Below, one piece after another: positions 10,664 through 18,848 of a DNA stretch of 64,000 bases. This DNA comes from Rhodococcus sp. PAMC28707 (lineage in GTDB: Bacteria > Actinomycetota > Actinomycetes > Mycobacteriales > Mycobacteriaceae), in assembly GCF_004795915.1 (NCBI RefSeq), contig NZ_CP039253.1:3437501-3501500 (forward strand), written 5' to 3'. Both the position numbers and the translations under genes were made by a program. The notes under the pieces were generated by a model that did not search any database, was not told the origin of the DNA, and worked only from the letters and a program-made list of their open reading frames with translations. Positions within the stretch are counted from its first letter, which is position 1; each line of letters starts with the position of its first letter.

Positions 10664-11080
10664 TCAAGAGTGGGTACCGGTGATGTTGACCAACCAGCTG
10701 ATGCCGAATTTGTCGGTGAGCATGCCGAAGGTATCGCCCCACGGTGCCTTCTCGAGCCCCATCGTATGCTTCGCGCCGACGACGAGTTTGTCCCAATAGC
10801 CCCGCAGTTCCGCTTCGTCTTCGCCGCTGAGGGAGACGGAAATGTTGTCGCCGACGCTCAACGCCATGCTTGCGGGGGTGTCGGAACACATCAGGGTCAG
10901 CCCACTCGGCGAGTCGAGTTGGCCATGCATGATCTGGTCCTTTTCGGAAGGGTCGGCGACGGCCCCGAAGTCGCCGAAGGTGCTCAACGTCAATTCACCC
11001 CCGAGCACGTGCTTATAAAACTCCAGCGCCTCGCGCGCTTGCCCGCGGAAATTCAGGTAGGGATTGAGTCGAGTAGGCAT
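10664..11080 (-). CDS. VOC-superfamily (PhnB/glyoxalase-like) protein
   Basis: 138 residues. The start is the ATG at 11080 because AGAGGAGGACAC lies directly upstream, one of the best ribosome sites in the window; the in-frame codons further upstream lack one. RLNPYLNFRGQAREALEFYK, GELTLSTFGDFG and WGDTFGMLTDKFGISWLVN are the hallmarks of the PhnB / 3-demethylubiquinone-like branch of the VOC fold, dimeric metal-binding or antibiotic-binding-like proteins whose substrates are mostly unknown. It is 70 bases downstream of the Suc_Fer-like gene on the same strand. Confidence 0.9.
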   Translation of the reverse strand: MPTRLNPYLNFRGQAREALEFYKHVLGGELTLSTFGDFGAVADPSEKDQIMHGQLDSPSGLTLMCSDTPASMALSVGDNISVSLSGEDEAELRGYWDKLVVGAKHTMGLEKAPWGDTFGMLTDKFGISWLVNITGTHS

Positions 11081-11150
11081 GTGTCCTCCTCTGTCGATGG
11101 GTTCGTCGACCATCGTAGGCAGGGGGAAGAGCAGCCGACGAGGATTTGTG

Positions 11151-12029
11151 CTACCGCATTGCGATGTCGATCAACTCGAATGTTCTGACTGCACCGGCGC
11201 GCACTGCCGCGCAGGTCGTGGTGATGGGCTCGGACACGCCCTGCTCCAGCGTCACGACGATTCGAGCACCGTCGTGGTCCAGTTCTACGGTCCATGTGCT
11301 GCCGTGTTGCGTCGTCGACAGCGGACTCAACGTGTCGATTCTTTCCTCGCGCAATGCCGCACGGGCATGATGCTGGGCAACCTGTACCGGCGCCGATTGT
11401 GAGCTTCGGCCCCGGAGGAAGCGCGGCTCGAGAAATCCATCCCGGTGCCGGTCGACGATCGTCGCGACGTCGGCGTCGTCGACGTTGCCGTAGTAAAGGC
11501 CCTGCGGAAACACGATCATCGTTCCGGCGAAGCGGTCGCCGCCCAGGTGAGAGCACTCCCAGGTCACCGACTCGTGGTGTTCCCTCAATGCCGGGAGCAC
11601 CTTCCGTCCGCGCACGGCGCAGCATCGGTCGTGGCGGCCGTGAGTGCAGACAGCAACGATCGGATCCGGCGAGGGTTCTCCGGTCGATCCGTCGAGTGGA
11701 ACGTCGAGAAGCTCCTCGTATGCCTCGACCTCGCCCCATCGGATGGACTCCGAACCTACCTCGCAGTCGACAATGGCCCATCTCATTCGGGCCTCGCTCA
11801 GCCGCCGAGCAGGTCGCCGGATGGCAAGGGTGCGCATGCCGGCCCCTTCGATACGGCGAACGATGCGCAAACCCAGGTCCGGATCGATCACCCTGGCCGA
11901 ATTCAGGAAAGCAGAGTGTCCCCAGGGTCCGTCGATCTCGACGAGAAACCATCGGCTTCCCGGCGACCCGGATCCTGCCAAGGCGTCACCGCGCTCGCGG
12001 GCGCGGTCGCTGCAGGCATGCCCGCTCAT
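11151..12029 (-). CDS. Suc_Fer-like (Apd1-type) thioredoxin-fold [2Fe-2S] protein
   Basis: 292 residues starting MSGHACSDRARERGDALAG. The ATG overlaps the stop of the cupin gene by 4 bases, so translation is coupled. Candidate cluster ligands are C128 (VCTHGRHDRCC), C136 or C137, then C159-S-H161-L-G-G-D165. In fungal Apd1, which belongs to this family, two Cys and two His hold the cluster; by my alignment the second His corresponds to Asp165 here, a form I believe common in actinobacteria. The N-terminal half (SRWFLVEIDGPWG) and the C-terminal wHTH-like segment fit the family. Tight coupling to the oxygenase suggests it supplies or senses electrons for that enzyme; this is inference. Confidence 0.85.
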   Translation of the reverse strand: MSGHACSDRARERGDALAGSGSPGSRWFLVEIDGPWGHSAFLNSARVIDPDLGLRIVRRIEGAGMRTLAIRRPARRLSEARMRWAIVDCEVGSESIRWGEVEAYEELLDVPLDGSTGEPSPDPIVAVCTHGRHDRCCAVRGRKVLPALREHHESVTWECSHLGGDRFAGTMIVFPQGLYYGNVDDADVATIVDRHRDGFLEPRFLRGRSSQSAPVQVAQHHARAALREERIDTLSPLSTTQHGSTWTVELDHDGARIVVTLEQGVSEPITTTCAAVRAGAVRTFELIDIAMR

Positions 12030-13285
12030 ACTGCCGGTACCAGTACTCCCTCGCGGAGAAGACGGCGAGTCACGACGATGGCACTCTCGGTGTTCAGGCC
12101 GGCCAGGTCGCCGACGCGGCAGACCTTCCCTGCGCGAAGTTGGATCACCGCGGCCGAACATTCGGCAGGGAGCGAGATCGTCGTACCGCGAAGACCGAGA
12201 CGAACTTTGCCTCCGTCGACGTCGATGGAGGCAGTCAATCCGCGACGCCACACCACCGAACTGTCGGCGTCGAGCGAGGTCATGAAGGCGACAGTCTTCA
12301 GCGGCTGCACTGGTTCGGGTCGCGTGGCGGAGACGAAGCGTTTTGCGAGTCCTCTGGCGATACGGCGTCGGAACTCGGGGTCGCCTTGGATGTCGGCGAC
12401 GATGGATCCGATGGAGTCGAGCACTCGGTCGATATGCGGTGCGAGAGCGTCGGAGTCGGTGAGATCGATGCCGGCGGGCAGCGGTTCACGAAGACCGGCG
12501 TCATCCGCGAGCAGACCGATCAGCTGGGTCGCTACGTCGAATCGATTGAACGATGCAACGCCGATGGTGAGGTGAATGGTTGTATCGCCCAATGCTTCTG
12601 CCGAGTGTATCCACCCACGAGGTAAATACAGTGCGTCACCGGGCTCGAGCACTGTATCGACAGCGGGCGCCTCGAGTGCCTGCTGCTCGACGGCACTGCG
12701 CCGGTCGGACCAGGGCTGATCGGCCAAGGGGTGCGTGTGCACGGGCGGATGGAGAATCCACCGCTTCTCACCGCTGATCTGGAGGACGAATACATCGTGC
12801 ACGTCGTAGTGTGGATCGAATCCCCGAGACGAGGCCGGGGTGATGTAGGCGTTGACCTGTGACGGGTGACCGATGTCGTCGACCAGATCGCGAACGAAGT
12901 CGATCAGGGGAGGCCACAGTCGATGCAGGCCTTGTAGAACAAGAGTGTGACCTCCGGCGAACGCGGACAGAATCGCCGCGGAGTCGAGCTGATCGGGCAT
13001 CTCGGCGCCGAAACCACCGGACGAAGTGAACTGGGATTCGTCCAGCAGTGAGCCATCTTTGGCCATCCTCGCGAAGGGAGTGCGCACCCCGCGACGCGAT
13101 ATCAATCCGTCCGCGGCCGAGGGCGTCATCAAATCGTCGAACGAGGCGGTGAGGTCGGATGCCCGCGAGAGCAGTGGCTTCTTCCCCCAGTACTCATCGG
13201 CGAAGGTTCGCCCGTCGACGGATATCAAACGACCGAGCGCGGACCGGAATTCCGGTCCGCGCTGGTCGACATCTGTCAGGCTCAA
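12026..13285 (-). CDS. JmjC-type cupin 2-oxoglutarate/Fe(II) oxygenase (ROXA-like)
   Basis: 419 residues. A JmjC/cupin barrel carries the Fe(II) triad H159-x-D161 (DPHYDVHD) and H227 (PRGWIHSAEAL); YWGKKPLLSR near residue 33 and VFVLQISGEKRWILH after the first ligands match the bacterial ribosomal-oxygenase/cupin_4 group. A C-terminal winged-helix-like region follows. Known relatives hydroxylate protein side chains such as Arg, His or Asn. The gene begins inside the stop of the repeat-peptide gene and ends inside the start of the Suc_Fer-like gene (4-base overlaps at both ends), so the three are made together. The peptide, rich in Asp, Asn and His, is the obvious candidate substrate; that is inferred from linkage alone. 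Confidence 0.88.
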   Translation of the reverse strand: MSLTDVDQRGPEFRSALGRLISVDGRTFADEYWGKKPLLSRASDLTASFDDLMTPSAADGLISRRGVRTPFARMAKDGSLLDESQFTSSGGFGAEMPDQLDSAAILSAFAGGHTLVLQGLHRLWPPLIDFVRDLVDDIGHPSQVNAYITPASSRGFDPHYDVHDVFVLQISGEKRWILHPPVHTHPLADQPWSDRRSAVEQQALEAPAVDTVLEPGDALYLPRGWIHSAEALGDTTIHLTIGVASFNRFDVATQLIGLLADDAGLREPLPAGIDLTDSDALAPHIDRVLDSIGSIVADIQGDPEFRRRIARGLAKRFVSATRPEPVQPLKTVAFMTSLDADSSVVWRRGLTASIDVDGGKVRLGLRGTTISLPAECSAAVIQLRAGKVCRVGDLAGLNTESAIVVTRRLLREGVLVPAV

Positions 13286-13536
13286 GCCGCGCCGTCCGCA
13301 CCGCCGTCGTGGCCATTGGGGTTCGATCCGCCATCGGCTGGACCCTCACCGGATCCTGCAGCACCGTCGGCGCCACCGTCGTGGCCACCTGGATTGGAGC
13401 CGCCGTCGGCTGGGCCTTCGCCGGGGCCAGCCGTGCCGTCGGCGCCGCCGTCATGTCCGTTGGGGTTGGAGCCGCCGTCGGCTGGGCCTTCGCCTGCTCC
13501 GCCGGTTGTGGTGATGTCGTCGTCGTTGATGTTCAT
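13282..13536 (-). CDS. Small tandem-repeat peptide, candidate modified precursor
   Basis: 84 residues: a 14-residue leader-like N-terminus (MNINDDDITTTGGA) followed by three near-identical 24-residue units of the form GEGPADGGSNP(N/G)GHDG plus GADG(T/A)A and a two-residue linker. It has no Cys, no Lys or Arg, and no hydrophobic segment, so it should be an acidic, flexible, cytosolic peptide. The start is the ATG at 13536 with GCGAAAGG upstream; the longer frame has no such site. The stop overlaps the ATG of the JmjC-type oxygenase by 4 bases. Position, repeats and short N-terminus fit a RiPP-type precursor with repeated cores. A structural or metal-binding peptide is the alternative. I know of no characterised relative. 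Confidence 0.75.
   Translation of the reverse strand: MNINDDDITTTGGAGEGPADGGSNPNGHDGGADGTAGPGEGPADGGSNPGGHDGGADGAAGSGEGPADGGSNPNGHDGGADGAA
13285..13494 (-). repeat. Three tandem 72-base coding repeats
   Basis: Units at 13423-13494, 13351-13422 and 13285-13350 (last one shortened by two codons). The unit is 24 codons, so any gain or loss of a unit keeps the reading frame. DNA identity between units is high even at third positions, which points to recent expansion or gene-conversion-like upkeep. Confidence 0.85.
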
Positions 13537-14023: not shown

Positions 14024-15730
14024 TCAGTGGAAGACGACGTTGAGGATGACGACCAGACCGAGGGCGAATCCTGCCAATGGGACTGGGCGTCGGTACCACG
14101 GGTTGGTGGCGTCCTGGGGATCGGTGAACATCTCGCGCGGTGTCTCCGAGTAAACGAAGCCGACCAGTTCCTTCGCCGGCTTCGGCTGCGTCACCATGCT
14201 GACGACGATGCTGACGACGATGTCGACAACGAACGCCGCGGAGGCCGCTACGAACGGCATTCCTTGGCCAGGCAGGTTGATAACGCCGACCTGGGAGAGA
14301 ATGAAGACGAAAACGGCCGCACCGGTACCGGATACGAGTCCGATCCAACCTGCTGCGGGGGTCATCTTCTTCCAGAACATACCGAGAATGAACGTCGCGA
14401 ACAGTGGAGCGTTGAAGAAACCGAACAGCGTCTGCAAGTAGTCCATCAGGTTGGAGTAACCCGAGGCTATCAGCGCGGTGAAAATCGCGAGGACAGTCGC
14501 AGCTACTGTCGCCACGCGACCAACCGAGATGTAGTACTTGTCTTCGCGACCCTTGACGATGTATTGCTGCCACAGGTCGTAACTGAATACTGTGTTGAAG
14601 GCCGAGATGTTGGCTGCCATACCGGCCATGAATGCTGCCATGAGACCGGCGATCGCGACGCCCAACAGGCCGTTGGGGAGGATGTCGCGCATCATCAACA
14701 GCATGGCGTCGTTGTAGGTGATGTCGCCTGTGCCGTTCTCTTTGAGGTTGATCATGTCGCCGATTGCGGCGGCGGCGATCATGCCGGGGACAACGACGAC
14801 GAAGGGCACCAACATCTTCGGGATTGCGCCGATGATCGGGGCGCGCCTGGCTGCAGACATCGAGCTCGAAGCCATAGCGCGCTGGACCTCGACGAAGTTG
14901 GTGGTCCAGTAACCGAAGGAGAGGACGAAGCCGAGTCCGAACACGATACCTACGACCGAGAGAATCGGGGATTCGAAACCGCTGAGTGCTTGTCCCGGCC
15001 ACGACGAAAGTTGCTCACTCGTCGAGGCTGTGACCGACCCGTCGGTGACAGTGGGTACAACCTTGTCCTTGAGGCCGGACCACCCGCCGACCTTGATCAG
15101 ACCGATGATCGTCAGAGGCACGAGTGCGGCAAGGATGACGAAGAACTGCAGGACCTCGTTGTAAATGGCGGCAGACAATCCACCGAGCACGGTGTAAGTC
15201 AGTACGATTGCGGCGGCGACGATCAGCGACACCCAGAGCGACCATCCCAGAAGCACTTTCACGACCGTTGCTAGCAGGAAGAGATTGACTCCGGCGATGA
15301 GGATCTGTGCGACGGCGAAGCTGATGGCATTGACGAGATGCGCCTTGGTATCGAATCGCTTGCGCATGAACTCGGGAACGCTTCGTACTTTCGAGCCGTA
15401 GTAGAACGGCATCATGACGATGCCGAGGAACAGCATGGCCGGAATGGCGCCGATCCAGTAGTAGTGCATCGTCGCGATACCGAGCTGTGCGCCATTGGCC
15501 GACATACCCATGATCTCGACGGCGCCGAGATTTGCCGAGACGAAGGCGATACCGGTAACCCAGGCCGGCAACCTGCGTCCGGAAAGAAAGAAGTCGAGGC
15601 TCGTCGACAGTTGGCGGCGAGCGACATAGCCGATACCGAGAACGAACACGAAATACACGGCGATGAGTACGTAGTCCAGCGCGTTCGTGTTGAACGAAAG
15701 CGCGCCTTCTGCCGCAAGGTTCGACGTCAC
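14024..15730 (-). CDS. Sodium:solute symporter (SSS family), probably galactose
   Basis: 568 residues with about 14 hydrophobic segments and the SSS pattern: YVLIAVYFVFVLGIGYVARR first helix, SLDFFLSGRRLPAWVTG, FVSANLGAVEIMGMSANG in the first repeat helix, and the long GLMAAFMAGMAANISAFNTV region. This resembles the SGLT/vSGLT branch. The gene is divergent from deoR-galT-galK across a 153-base AT-rich gap holding repeats, so a galactose (or another sugar feeding galactose) substrate is inferred. A small two-helix protein gene follows it. The gene's specificity cannot be read directly from sequence. Confidence 0.9.
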   Translation of the reverse strand: MTSNLAAEGALSFNTNALDYVLIAVYFVFVLGIGYVARRQLSTSLDFFLSGRRLPAWVTGIAFVSANLGAVEIMGMSANGAQLGIATMHYYWIGAIPAMLFLGIVMMPFYYGSKVRSVPEFMRKRFDTKAHLVNAISFAVAQILIAGVNLFLLATVVKVLLGWSLWVSLIVAAAIVLTYTVLGGLSAAIYNEVLQFFVILAALVPLTIIGLIKVGGWSGLKDKVVPTVTDGSVTASTSEQLSSWPGQALSGFESPILSVVGIVFGLGFVLSFGYWTTNFVEVQRAMASSSMSAARRAPIIGAIPKMLVPFVVVVPGMIAAAAIGDMINLKENGTGDITYNDAMLLMMRDILPNGLLGVAIAGLMAAFMAGMAANISAFNTVFSYDLWQQYIVKGREDKYYISVGRVATVAATVLAIFTALIASGYSNLMDYLQTLFGFFNAPLFATFILGMFWKKMTPAAGWIGLVSGTGAAVFVFILSQVGVINLPGQGMPFVAASAAFVVDIVVSIVVSMVTQPKPAKELVGFVYSETPREMFTDPQDATNPWYRRPVPLAGFALGLVVILNVVFH

Positions 15731-15804
15731 GCGTCAACCTCCCTGGTTGAGTGAGCTGGCTCACGGGCGTGAGCGATCTGAACACAAAGTAACAGGTCTA
15801 AACA

Positions 15805-15841
15805 ATTACTTACATCAAGAGTGGATATTTCAAGAAGTAAT
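15805..15841. promoter_or_regulatory. Probable DeoR operator between symporter and deoR-galTK
   Basis: Inverted repeat ATTACTT (15805-15811) and AAGTAAT (15835-15841), 23 bases apart, continuing into a direct repeat TAATGTT (15838-15844 and 15848-15854). The gap is markedly AT-rich relative to its surroundings and serves two divergent promoters. DeoR-type repressors bind spaced repeats of this kind. Binding by the adjacent regulator is inferred. Confidence 0.45.
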
Positions 15842-15883
15842 GTTTGGTAATGTTCGTTTCACCCGATCCAGAGGTAGGTGCGG

Positions 15884-16666
15884 ATGCTAGCAGCCGAGCG
15901 GCACGCCAAGATTCTCGCTGCGCTTCGCAGCGACGGTGCAGTGAAAGTGGTCGATTTCGCCGAACTGCTCGATGTCTCCGAGATGACGATCCGACGCGAT
16001 CTCGACGTTCTCGACGAGCGGGAACTTCTGCGGAAGGTCCACGGTGGCGCGATCGCCAGAAACAATCGCGGAGAGGAACCACTCTCGACGGCCAAAGCCG
16101 CCCGTCAACATGCCGAAAAGGTCGCCATCGGGCGGGCTGCAGTCGATACGGTCGAGGACGGTATGACGATCGCCGTCAGTGCTGGGACGACAACACTCGA
16201 ACTTGCTCGTCTGCTGCGCGGCCGGGCATCGATCACCGTTGTCACGAACTCGATTTCGATCTTTCAGGAGCTGACAGGTCACCACTCGGAACCCAACCCG
16301 ATCGTCTATTTGACGGGTGGCTCTCGGACACCGTCGGACGCGCTCGTCGGACCGATAGCTGACGCCGCCCTCGCCGCTTTTCGTGTCGACGCCGTCTATC
16401 TGGGCGTTCATGGATTCGACGTCGAATCTGGCCTGACCACACCGAACATTGCTGAAGCAGAGACCAATCGGAGGCTCATCGCAACCGGTCGGCGTCTGTT
16501 CGTACTTGCCGACAACACCAAACACCGCGAGGTAGGGACCAACGTGTTCGCACCGATCTCGGCGGTGAACACCCTCGTCGTCGACGATGGGCTCGGCGCG
16601 TCCGACCGCGCTCTGCTTGCACCACATCTAGAGACCATCCTCGTGGCCGAGACGGAGAAGTTATGA
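15884..16666 (+). CDS. DeoR-family transcriptional regulator of galactose genes
   Basis: 260 residues. The start MLAAERHAKILAALR is the standard DeoR opening; GAGG at 15871-15874 is 9 bases from the ATG at 15884 but only 3 from a GTG at 15878, so I prefer the ATG. The N-terminal winged helix (about 1-57) contains VVDFAELLDVSEMTIRRDLD and LLRKVHGGA. The C-terminal DeoRC sugar-phosphate sensing domain carries VSAGTTTLELARLL and LLADNTKH-like blocks. The stop overlaps the galT start by 4 bases. Family members usually repress their operon until a sugar phosphate binds; here the effector would be a galactose-pathway intermediate. Confidence 0.92.
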   Translation: MLAAERHAKILAALRSDGAVKVVDFAELLDVSEMTIRRDLDVLDERELLRKVHGGAIARNNRGEEPLSTAKAARQHAEKVAIGRAAVDTVEDGMTIAVSAGTTTLELARLLRGRASITVVTNSISIFQELTGHHSEPNPIVYLTGGSRTPSDALVGPIADAALAAFRVDAVYLGVHGFDVESGLTTPNIAEAETNRRLIATGRRLFVLADNTKHREVGTNVFAPISAVNTLVVDDGLGASDRALLAPHLETILVAETEKL

Positions 16667-17760
16667 GCGAGCGCAGGGAGCCCGTCAGCAGCGTGCTCGC
16701 CGACGGCCGAGAAATTCTGTTCTTCTCGCTGCCCGGTCACACTCCTCACCCGGTACCGGATCTGCGTCCCCTGGCGGCGAGATCCGCGACCACAGCGTCG
16801 GAAGTTCGCCTGGACCGACAGACCGGCGACTGGGTTACGGTGGCCGCACTGAGGCAGGATCGGACGTACAAGCCGCCGGCAGATCAGTGCCCGTTGTGCC
16901 CATCACCTCGAGGTGATTCGAGTGAGGTGCCTGCGGCGGACTACGACGTCGTCGTGTTCGAGAATCGATTTCCGAGCTTGTCTCATGCTGGGGATGGGGC
17001 TGAGGTACTGGTGCCGGGATCGGTGGTTTCGCCAGGAGTCGGCCGGTGCGAGGTCATTTGTTTCTCCAGCGATCACACGACGTCGTTCGCCGAGTTGAGT
17101 CACCAGCACGCTCGACTGGTGGTCGACGTGTGGCGTCGACGTACCGAAGCATTGTTCGACTTGGACGGCATCGAACAGGTCTTCTGCTTCGAGAATCGAG
17201 GCGAGGAAATCGGCGTGACGCTGTCGCATCCGCACGGGCAAATCTACGGCTACCCGTACCTGACGCCTCGAAGCACGTCGATGTTGCGCCAAGCGGAACT
17301 TTTCGCGGAGGCGAACTCGGACGCAAATCTGTTTGCCGACATACTCGCTCGCGAACTCGACGATGGCGCAAGGGTCATTGTCGAAACCGAGCACTTCACG
17401 GCGTTCGTTCCGTTCGCAGCGCGATGGCCAGTGGAAGTGCATATTTTCCCGAACAGACACGTGCACAACCTGACAGAGCTGTCGGGGGATGAATTGGAAG
17501 ATCTCACTGCCGTCTATCTCGATGTGCTCGGCAGATTCGATCGAATGTATCGAACTCCGCTGCCATACATTTCAGCACTGCATCAGTTCCGGTCCGACCG
17601 TGGTCAGCAACGTGGGTACTTCCATATCGAATTGATGTCGGTGCGAAGAGCTGCGAACAAGCTCAAGTTTCTGGCTGGGTCGGAATCGGCAATGGATGCC
17701 TTCATCACAGATGTCACTCCGGAACAGATGGCGGATCGATTGAAGGGGTTGGCTTCGTGA
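16663..17760 (+). CDS. galT: Galactose-1-phosphate uridylyltransferase
   Basis: 365 residues. It exchanges UDP between UDP-glucose and galactose 1-phosphate (Leloir pathway). The active-site motif HPHGQ places the nucleophile at H191 (H189-P190-H191), and the zinc-site cysteines C76 and C79 (CPLCPS) are present. FENRGEEIGVTLSHPH and HIFPNRHV are typical of the family. The start overlaps the deoR stop and the stop overlaps the galK start, each by 4 bases, so the three form one coupled operon. No galE or galM lies in the window. Confidence 0.96.
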   Translation: MSERREPVSSVLADGREILFFSLPGHTPHPVPDLRPLAARSATTASEVRLDRQTGDWVTVAALRQDRTYKPPADQCPLCPSPRGDSSEVPAADYDVVVFENRFPSLSHAGDGAEVLVPGSVVSPGVGRCEVICFSSDHTTSFAELSHQHARLVVDVWRRRTEALFDLDGIEQVFCFENRGEEIGVTLSHPHGQIYGYPYLTPRSTSMLRQAELFAEANSDANLFADILARELDDGARVIVETEHFTAFVPFAARWPVEVHIFPNRHVHNLTELSGDELEDLTAVYLDVLGRFDRMYRTPLPYISALHQFRSDRGQQRGYFHIELMSVRRAANKLKFLAGSESAMDAFITDVTPEQMADRLKGLAS

Positions 17761-18848
17761 ACGTAGTGGTGGCGCGGGCGCCCGGGCGGATCAATCTGAT
17801 CGGTGAGCACACCGACTACAACCAGGGCTTCGCAATGCCGATTGCCCTCGAAGAGCGCACCACGGTCCGATTCGAGCCGGATGGCTCCGATGTCATCACC
17901 GTGCGCAGTACTCGGGAGAGCATCGGGTCCACTTTCGCGGTGCACGTGCAACCCGGTGAGGTCGATGGATGGTCCTCCTACCCTGCAGGAGTGGTGTGGG
18001 CGCTACGGGCGGCAGGGCACCCGGTAGTCGGTGGCACGATGTCGGTGACGAGTGATGTGCCGATCGGTGCTGGGCTGTCTTCTTCCGCTGCGTTGGAATG
18101 TGCTGTGCTACTTGCCATCACTGCCGCCACCGGGACGGATCTGGATCTGCTCGAAGTAGCCCTTGTCGCGCAACGCGCGGAGAACGAGTTCGTCGGGGCC
18201 CCCACCGGATTGATGGACCAGTTGGCGTCCCTCCACGGTGAAGTCGATCGAGCACTGCTCATCGATTTCGAGGACTTCTCCGTCAGTCCGGTGGTCTTTG
18301 ATCTCGCCAGTCATGGGCTCAGCTTGCTGGTAATCAACTCCAATGCGGCACATCATCATTCCACCGGGGAATATGCGTCGCGCCGCGAATCGTGTACGCG
18401 GGCGGCCGCAGTGTTGGGCGTCGAATCCTTGCGGGATGTGCAAGGCCGAGAAGGGGTTCTGGACCGTATCGACGATCCGACCGACCGCTGCCGAGTCCGA
18501 CACGTCCTGAGCGAGAACCAACGAGTTCTCGATTGTGCAGAAGCATTGACTACCGGAGATTTTCGACGAGTCGGTGAATTGATGACGCAGTCGCATGCCT
18601 CGATGCGGGACGACTTCGAGATCACCACGCTTAACATCGATCTCATCGTCGAATCTGCGGTTCGTCACGGGGCACTCGGCGCGCGGATGACCGGCGGTGG
18701 CTTCGGCGGATGCGTCATCGCTGTCGTACCTGCGGCGGACGCGGCTGCCATCACTACTGCCGTCGAGCATGATGTCGTGGCTGGTGGTCATCCTGCGCCG
18801 ACGACGTTCACAGGGCAGGCGGGGGCAGGTGCTTCATGGTACGAGTGA
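17757..18848 (+). CDS. galK: Galactokinase
   Basis: 363 residues of the GHMP kinase family, phosphorylating galactose at C1 with ATP. Motif 1 RINLIGEHTDYN is at about 11-22, the glycine-rich ATP loop PIGAGLSSSAALE at 102-114, and motif 3 RMTGGGFGGCVIA near 316. The start is GTG at 17757 inside the galT stop. It is the last gene of deoR-galT-galK. The following 220 bases up to the next gene hold no clear terminator. Confidence 0.96.
   Translation: MNVVVARAPGRINLIGEHTDYNQGFAMPIALEERTTVRFEPDGSDVITVRSTRESIGSTFAVHVQPGEVDGWSSYPAGVVWALRAAGHPVVGGTMSVTSDVPIGAGLSSSAALECAVLLAITAATGTDLDLLEVALVAQRAENEFVGAPTGLMDQLASLHGEVDRALLIDFEDFSVSPVVFDLASHGLSLLVINSNAAHHHSTGEYASRRESCTRAAAVLGVESLRDVQGREGVLDRIDDPTDRCRVRHVLSENQRVLDCAEALTTGDFRRVGELMTQSHASMRDDFEITTLNIDLIVESAVRHGALGARMTGGGFGGCVIAVVPAADAAAITTAVEHDVVAGGHPAPTTFTGQAGAGASWYE

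Follow-up and report, generated by a model that had tools for sequence, protein, structure and literature searches.

A candidate ribosomal peptide cassette pairing aspartate-rich repeat precursors with a JmjC-type oxygenase in Actinomycetota

We analysed a 64,000-nucleotide (nt) stretch of the Rhodococcus sp. PAMC28707 genome (contig NZ_CP039253.1, positions 3,437,501 to 3,501,500), referred to here as the window, and focused on an operon that encodes a short repeat peptide, a JmjC-type oxygenase and a Suc_Fer-like iron-sulfur protein. Comparison with related loci makes it very likely that the JmjC protein acts on the repeat peptide as its substrate. Overall, the loci are probably best read as a compact cassette resembling those of ribosomally synthesized and post-translationally modified peptides (RiPPs), in which the JmjC protein would beta-hydroxylate Asp residues of the peptide under the guidance of a leader. 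Across Actinomycetota, the peptides have a similar leader and an Asp-rich core that is variable in type and repeat number.

Three overlapping genes encode a repeat peptide, an oxygenase and an iron-sulfur protein

As originally predicted, the three genes form an overlapping operon. They lie on the minus strand with four-base overlaps at both junctions, between the TGA stop of the peptide gene and the TTG start of the JmjC gene, and between the JmjC stop and the ATG start of the Suc_Fer gene. The precursor-like peptide gene (13282..13536; P0001; ATG start), identified from its orthologues and codon-position pattern, encodes 84 residues. Alignment of orthologues delimits a 14-residue N-terminus, MNINDDDITTTGGA (13495..13536), which carries the leader motif DDDIT and precedes three units of the form GEGPADGGSNPxGHDGGADGxA, defined by translation and codon-position comparison. 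The N-terminus was as proposed, but the three units, initially given as 24 residues each, are 24, 24 and 22 residues long: GEGPADGGSNPNGHDGGADGTAGP (13423..13494), GEGPADGGSNPGGHDGGADGAAGS (13351..13422) and GEGPADGGSNPNGHDGGADGAA (13285..13350), the last without the two linker residues. Lys, Arg and Cys are absent from the translation, as had been noted, along with Phe, Trp and Tyr, and the peptide matched no family in Pfam or NCBIfam.

The second gene (12026..13285; P0002; 419 residues) encodes a predicted Fe(II)/2-oxoglutarate (2OG) oxygenase that matched JmjC_2 (PF08007; E 7.3e-28, 97.1 bits against a cut-off of 22), an assignment shared by alignment, an AlphaFold2 (AF2) model and the fold of NO66 in the PDB. 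The third (11151..12029; P0003; 292 residues) matched the Suc_Fer-like family (PF06999; E 2.6e-19, 70.5 bits against a cut-off of 34.9) and encodes a predicted thioredoxin-like [2Fe-2S] protein. The source genome contains a single match each for PF08007, PF06999 and a profile built from the peptide.

The peptide gene is under selection and adjoins the JmjC gene across genomes

The peptide open reading frame (ORF) is overlapped on both strands by other ORFs of equal or greater length. When the window units were compared with orthologous units, 526, 172 and 2059 changes were found at first, second and third codon positions (204 unit pairs), a bias that points to selection at the protein level. 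Units within one peptide differed by 231, 170 and 1632 changes at the same positions (214 pairs), and this third-position excess indicates that the repeats are old and have been kept by selection. The peptide gene is thus real and under protein-level selection. A search for direct repeats in 11000-11600, a stretch that excludes the peptide, found none.

When GTDB contigs were scanned with the JmjC protein, 181 relatives were found, and the peptide was directly upstream of JmjC in 80/80 loci kept as the best of these, which are accordingly close relatives (loci carry handles such as L020, genomes such as G587). A script found 78 of the upstream peptides, and a second look found those of L020, cut by a contig end, and L039, which contains a run of N. 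The peptide profile had 12 matches in 396 genomes of the phylum, all 12 adjoining a JmjC_2 gene by coordinates. In 251 genomes of the window's family, it matched 69, again always beside JmjC, so that the profile was never matched without an adjoining JmjC gene; these locus counts are not phylogenetically independent. The JmjC profile matched 74 of the 251 genomes, with a peptide seen in 73. The five JmjC genomes without a peptide-profile match belong to one genus: four (L201-L204) encode a divergent precursor, EGPADGGAxGxPGVHDGGADGGADGGAD..., with long GGAD arrays, and in the fifth (L200) the contig ends 92 nt upstream of JmjC. The distribution of the cassette is therefore patchy, with JmjC in 74/251 family genomes and tied to the peptide.

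Repeat number was three in 70 loci and two in 8, with one locus masked; L205 has a single unit, while L199 also carries a long GGAD array. Conserved synteny with variable repeat number, the pattern named in advance as supporting a linked peptide and enzyme, was seen in well over 100 loci. In one locus (L206, genome G587), JmjC is split over two frames after ~210 residues, and the peptide and Suc_Fer look intact.

A similar leader precedes different Asp-rich cores in the wider JmjC clade

PF08007 was found in 59/396 phylum genomes (68 genes). Seven of these genes were already known to carry a peptide of the window's GHDGGADG type, and the other 61 were fetched with their context. A window-type JmjC profile splits the 61 into a clade of 46 scoring above 180 bits and 15 that score below 171 or are unmatched; 44 of the 46 have at least 450 nt upstream and form the testable set. 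For loci and controls alike, we took the best ORF ending within 400 nt. An Asp-rich upstream ORF (at least 13% Asp in the last 45 residues) was found in 44/44 clade loci, and 38/44 reached at least 20%. Random windows from the same loci reached these thresholds in 172/2179 and 57/2179 cases, and the 15 non-clade JmjC genes in one case (at the threshold) and none, respectively.

A leader of the LT-DEDIETV type, a few residues from the start codon, was present in 38/44 loci ahead of different cores. The pattern used was permissive, and in two loci, L140 and L157, it marked a neighbouring string (DDDIS and DEDIK come after it). L145 carries DEDVQAV instead, and no match to the motif was seen in L142, L143 or L183. 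Core types include DADGTDGDATDxxDGDA, DADSTDADADST, DGTDGDSGDGD and GAGDAAGDG, as well as TEDDENLDAPGEHSQDTGDEP (twice) and SADGTDQGVxGGTYGPRDA. Two features by which RiPP systems are recognized are thus found here: a short precursor gene beside a modifying enzyme (80/80, 69/69 and 44/44 loci in the three sets) and a conserved leader joined to a variable core (38/44 with the leader motif). In a quick tree, with long branches among non-clade rows, the GHDGGADG-type rows fall into a single starred group of 19 that includes L136, and most Asp-rich rows form a starred group of 39; L152 and L164 fall outside both, and the non-clade L134 falls inside the Asp-rich group.

Small ORFs were also seen beside more distant JmjC_2 genes. 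In the Streptomyces-like, non-clade loci L125 and L128, short upstream ORFs ending SDVSGGRSDGND and TGRSDGND lie near the JmjC start, hinting that other JmjC_2 clades may also have small precursors. On a Streptomyces clavuligerus plasmid (L185, 3320-3466), a 48-residue hypothetical protein, SLEPDEIEVIPP... IADNDPSDPPIAIADPDPFDPVI, precedes JmjC and has a similar leader and an Asp-containing core. Ahead of the non-clade JmjC of L131 (G352, a genome with five JmjC_2 matches) is a 35-residue ORF ending EIEDEELEALSGGLEVI, which we take to resemble a lanthipeptide-type leader. On a Rhizobium etli plasmid (L188), JmjC is clustered with a radical SAM/SPASM gene, a 77-residue hypothetical protein and a GNAT gene, a RiPP-like context. 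None of the 37 stretches of viral contigs that matched a pattern was a JmjC relative.

The oxygenase resembles protein side-chain hydroxylases and has a C-terminal winged helix

The JmjC catalytic domain, placed by Pfam and alignments, spans residues 141-245 (12551..12865). Its predicted triad, H159, D161 and H227, was borne out by an alignment of relatives, in which these residues and K174 are identical in 130/131 sequences, the remaining one having a gap. K174 aligns with the lysine in the G-R-K-L-W stretch of NO66, which we take to be the 2OG-binding lysine. All 30 members of the JmjC alignment matched PF08007. The AF2 model had a mean predicted local distance difference test score of 91.1, and the best solved relative was NO66 (profile E 5e-28, 22% identity, template modelling score up to 0.72 by Foldseek), followed by MINA, RoxA and Rhodothermus YcfD, then YxbC and FIH. 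The nearest folds, NO66, MINA, RoxA and FIH, are those of protein side-chain hydroxylases, and by analogy with them hydroxylation is the rather likely modification.

Ribosomal oxygenase (ROX) enzymes carry a C-terminal winged helix after the JmjC domain. In the window protein, residues 343-417 (12035..12259) form a winged helix by the order of strands and helices in the AF2 model, with a full-length fold match to NO66. Its last helix carries the signature RRLxREG in the clade. The strict form was matched by 109/120 leader-bearing rows, a set that includes L020, L147 and L160 by default, as their leaders lie off the contig. Six of the other 11 keep RLxRE (L009, L138, L146, L155, L159, L165), L148 and L166 carry close variants, and L079 and L152 are cut short; the last, L164, is taken up below. 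Nine loci that lack the acidic leader motif (L136, L142, L143, L183, L199, L201-L204) have xRLLRAG or a similar string in place of RRLxREG. This joint loss of leader and signature points to the winged helix as a candidate reader of the leader.

The Suc_Fer-like protein is a frequent but dispensable partner

Suc_Fer was found downstream in 72/80 kept loci, the exceptions being L005-L008, L011, L012, L033 and L036, and by coordinates it adjoins 60/74 family JmjC loci. Of the 14 family loci without an adjoining copy, twelve are from the window's genus and the other two are G438 and G454. Twelve of these absences are genomes with zero matches (11 of the window's genus, plus G454, which a look at the locus itself confirmed); G623 has a match on another contig, and in G438 no copy was seen in the 1.3 kb of downstream sequence before the contig ends. 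In the phylum set, it was present in 38/61 context loci, all within the 46 clade loci. Since relatives of Suc_Fer are more widespread than the cassette, matching 175/251 family genomes compared to 74 with JmjC, only the operon copy is linked to it. Suc_Fer is therefore an accessory component, frequent but dispensable.

The predicted cluster ligands are C-x8-C and H-x3-D. C-x8-C was kept in 38/38 phylum loci and H-x3-D in 37/38, with H-x3-C in the remaining one; the C-x8-C-xn-H-x3-H motif of the Aim32/Apd1 type was not found, the second His being Asp or Cys. A neighbouring residue, Cys159, is Cys in 23/38. These patterns make an Asp-ligated [2Fe-2S] cluster possible in the operon copies. The AF2 model scored 88.6, and comparison with the PDB, by fold or sequence, gave no match at E <= 0.001.

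Asp is the likely target, and rival explanations are less probable

The original prediction named Asp, Asn or His as the hydroxylated residue. The 38 precursors of the wider clade contain 875 Asp, 26 His, 30 Asn and no Cys in total. Past residue 15, none is without Asp, while 26 are without His, 25 without Asn and 22 without both. Within the GHDGGADG type, a table of 225 units from 78 loci, anchored on the EGxA start only and leaving out L039 because of its run of N, has Asp at the three Asp positions in 224, 225 and 225 units; an earlier table anchored on DGGADG, which fixes two of the three Asp positions, gave similar numbers. Of Asp, Asn and His, Asp alone is common to all cores, and by elimination it is likely to be the modified residue; Thr and Ser are also frequent in the cores. 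The comparisons thus favour leader-guided Asp beta-hydroxylation, and "Asn or His" as the target did not hold up. An alternative in which JmjC modifies His or Asn in the GHDGGADG type, in the manner of NO66 and MINA or of FIH, with the Asp-rich cores as a separate specificity, draws on the high conservation of His (218/225) and Asn (223/225) and on the fact that NO66 and MINA hydroxylate His. We consider it unlikely: Gln replaces His in all three units of L094 and L143, His is Ala in 7/225 units, and Asn is absent from the cores of L093, L199 and L201-L204, all of the loci with Gln for His or without Asn having intact catalytic residues, whereas Asp is near-invariant in the units and present in every wide core. 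A more specific His-centred target, suggested by a presumed resemblance to the uL2 His sites of NO66, was dropped on finding His replaced in several cores.

Three further explanations concern the role of the peptide or the chemistry. The JmjC protein could be a ribosomal oxygenase acting on a ribosomal protein, with the peptide as a regulator, competitive decoy or translational-coupling leader. The solved structures nearest to it are those of ribosomal oxygenases, which share its two-domain layout, and the stop/start overlap would fit translational coupling, but the patchy spread tied to the peptide speaks against this, and a mere coupling ORF would not keep its repeats (2059 third-position versus 172 second-position changes) or vary its cores behind a similar leader, which leaves this explanation quite improbable. 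Still less probable is that the peptide is a metal-binding chaperone feeding Fe to JmjC and Suc_Fer rather than a substrate. The very acidic repeats, and DxDGxD strings in some cores that presumably resemble calcium-binding loops, would suit such a role, but a similar short leader joined to a variable core is how an enzyme substrate is laid out, and in the family genomes the peptide was not seen without JmjC but was seen without adjoining Suc_Fer. Finally, JmjC might perform another Asp oxidation beyond beta-hydroxylation, leading to aminomalonate or cross-linking. SmaO and SmaX (as cited in the available part of PMC13097080) offer a precedent, and many loci encode Suc_Fer as a second iron protein; however, JmjC_2 relatives of known activity hydroxylate, and an obligatory second step by Suc_Fer is unlikely with no adjoining copy in 14/74 family loci. 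We judge this improbable as well.

Genes and regulatory boxes around the cassette

Flanks of up to ~5 kb a side were compared in 34 and 59 loci, and no protease, transporter, immunity gene or regulator recurred widely. The 34 loci carry 19 genus labels; the ORFs that recur among them are those of JmjC and Suc_Fer and their shadows, and the next groups reach 3 labels. In the 59 wide-set loci, the next group after JmjC and Suc_Fer reaches 4 loci, in part close relatives. The lack of a dedicated leader protease or exporter weakens the case for a classical secreted RiPP, although such genes are not universal to RiPPs. In 33 upstream regions, IdeR, Zur, LexA, DosR, CRP, SigH and Fur-like boxes did not score above the shuffled maximum, nor did any shared 6-8-mer exceed the maximum of shuffled controls. 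The absence of a conserved protease, transporter or immunity gene and of a regulator box argues against a secreted antibiotic.

Adjoining the cassette in the window (14024-18848) are ORFs that we take to encode an SLC5-like sodium/solute symporter, a DeoR-like regulator and galT-like and galK-like proteins, named from their sequence without a family search; among the 34 loci, their relatives occur only in close Rhodococcus kin.

A proposed route for the cassette and the evidence that weighs against it

In the route we propose, the leader, [DE][DE]D[IM]x[TS] or a close variant, would be held by the C-terminal winged helix of JmjC, and the JmjC domain, with Fe(II), O2 and 2OG, would then beta-hydroxylate Asp in one [small]-Asp-[Gly/Ala] unit of the core after another. 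Where present, Suc_Fer may keep the iron reduced or couple the reaction to redox state, without being essential. The product probably remains intracellular or exits by general routes, because no dedicated protease, exporter or immunity gene was found. The most plausible use of a poly-(beta-hydroxy-Asp) peptide would be to bind metal ions, which we offer as speculation. Equally tentative is the broadest form of the idea, an old, actinobacteria-wide family of ribosomal poly-(beta-hydroxyaspartate) peptides, encoded by as few as two or three genes, with a DEDIETV-like leader, tandem repeats free to vary in length, a ROX-type JmjC enzyme that would hydroxylate Asp along them, a metal-binding (Fe, Ca, Mn) or redox-responsive intracellular product and a Cys2-His-Asp [2Fe-2S] partner.

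Several observations weigh against this reading. The original prediction held that the enzyme pair occurring widely without a repeat peptide would count against it; where upstream sequence is sufficient, no clade JmjC gene was without a peptide except L136, inside the clade, whose upstream ORF is acidic but has neither leader nor repeats, and L161, which is preceded only by a 28-residue fragment. The pairing of leader and winged helix also has exceptions: L164 keeps its leader but has lost RRLxREG, L145 (DEDVQAV) and L161 (an unsure case) were set apart as having no leader yet keep the signature, and L183 has a partial leader motif, NDDDTM. The co-loss may be one evolutionary event; L136, L142, L143 and L183 group together as a single clade in the tree, and the other five loci, from a single genus (g260), were not placed in it. 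The winged helix did not match the Pfam models of PqqD or the RiPP recognition element (RRE). His and Asn come close to Asp in conservation within the GHDGGADG type, and ribosomal targets could still be shared substrates. The metal idea gains no support from the region ahead of the operon, where no iron, zinc or other box was found.

If the reading is true, these loci represent a large RiPP-like family, as yet without a name, whose members occur in Rhodococcus, Mycobacterium, Gordonia, Dietzia, Microbacteriaceae and more deeply branching actinobacterial lines, and a new genetically encoded substrate class for the JmjC_2 (ribosomal oxygenase) family, with the candidate substrate encoded in the same operon as the enzyme. 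It would also supply an enzyme that, guided by a leader, could hydroxylate Asp iteratively in designed peptides, as well as a hint as to why bacterial JmjC proteins retain a winged-helix domain.

Comparison with known systems

NO66/RIOX1, MINA53/RIOX2, RoxA/YcfD and Rhodothermus YcfD share with the cassette enzyme the Pfam family, the catalytic triad, the aligned lysine and the winged helix. At ~22% identity, however, the cassette JmjC is distinct from these ribosomal oxygenases, and its gene overlaps that of a repeat peptide in an operon. Since its distribution follows that of the peptide, a ribosomal substrate is not indicated, at least not as the sole one. The cassette Suc_Fer has C-x8-C and a His in common with the Aim32/Apd1 thioredoxin-like ferredoxins, which we take to belong to PF06999, but its second His is Asp and its gene is linked to the JmjC operon. 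Yeast Aim32 has the motif C-x8-C...H-x3-H with a conserved His (excerpts of PMC8482512).

FIH is likewise a JmjC hydroxylase, and its targets include Asn, Asp and His residues of ankyrin repeats (PMC4543633, in excerpt). It differs from the cassette enzyme in acting on folded-protein repeats encoded by other genes, with no dedicated precursor, and its sequence match is weak (E ~3e-4). Closer in layout are BipG and PbsQ of biphenomycin-type clusters, JmjC-type or cupin enzymes that hydroxylate ornithine in a ribosomal precursor (excerpts of PMC12707348 and PMC12257519). According to the same excerpts, these clusters are multi-enzyme systems with a transporter, a metallopeptidase and a radical SAM enzyme, whereas the cassette has a long Asp repeat and no such recurring genes. 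In chemistry, a precedent is a graspetide cluster in which SmaO introduces a beta-hydroxyl on Asp and SmaX takes the residue on to aminomalonate (cited in PMC13097080, available part). SmaO resembles the proposed cassette enzyme in hydroxylating Asp at the beta position in a RiPP precursor but, as described there, acts at the N-terminus of the peptide.

In open-licence full-text literature, which mostly does not cover subscription papers, we found no description of the repeat peptide or of a JmjC/Suc_Fer pairing. The nearest published notice is in the RRE-Finder study of 2025, according to which the bacterial JmjC homologs most closely related to eukaryotic RRE-JmjC fusions are located in "RiPP-like genomic contexts" (PMC12710340, in part). 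In the part available, its remark on PF08007 makes no mention of a precursor, a leader, an Asp repeat or a Suc_Fer partner, and a term search of the main text returned 0 for Suc_Fer and for Asp-rich. JmjC or cupin hydroxylases in RiPP pathways and Asp beta-hydroxylation are thus already known, and what is new here is the association of Asp-repeat precursors with a dedicated ROX-type enzyme in a minimal operon found phylum-wide.

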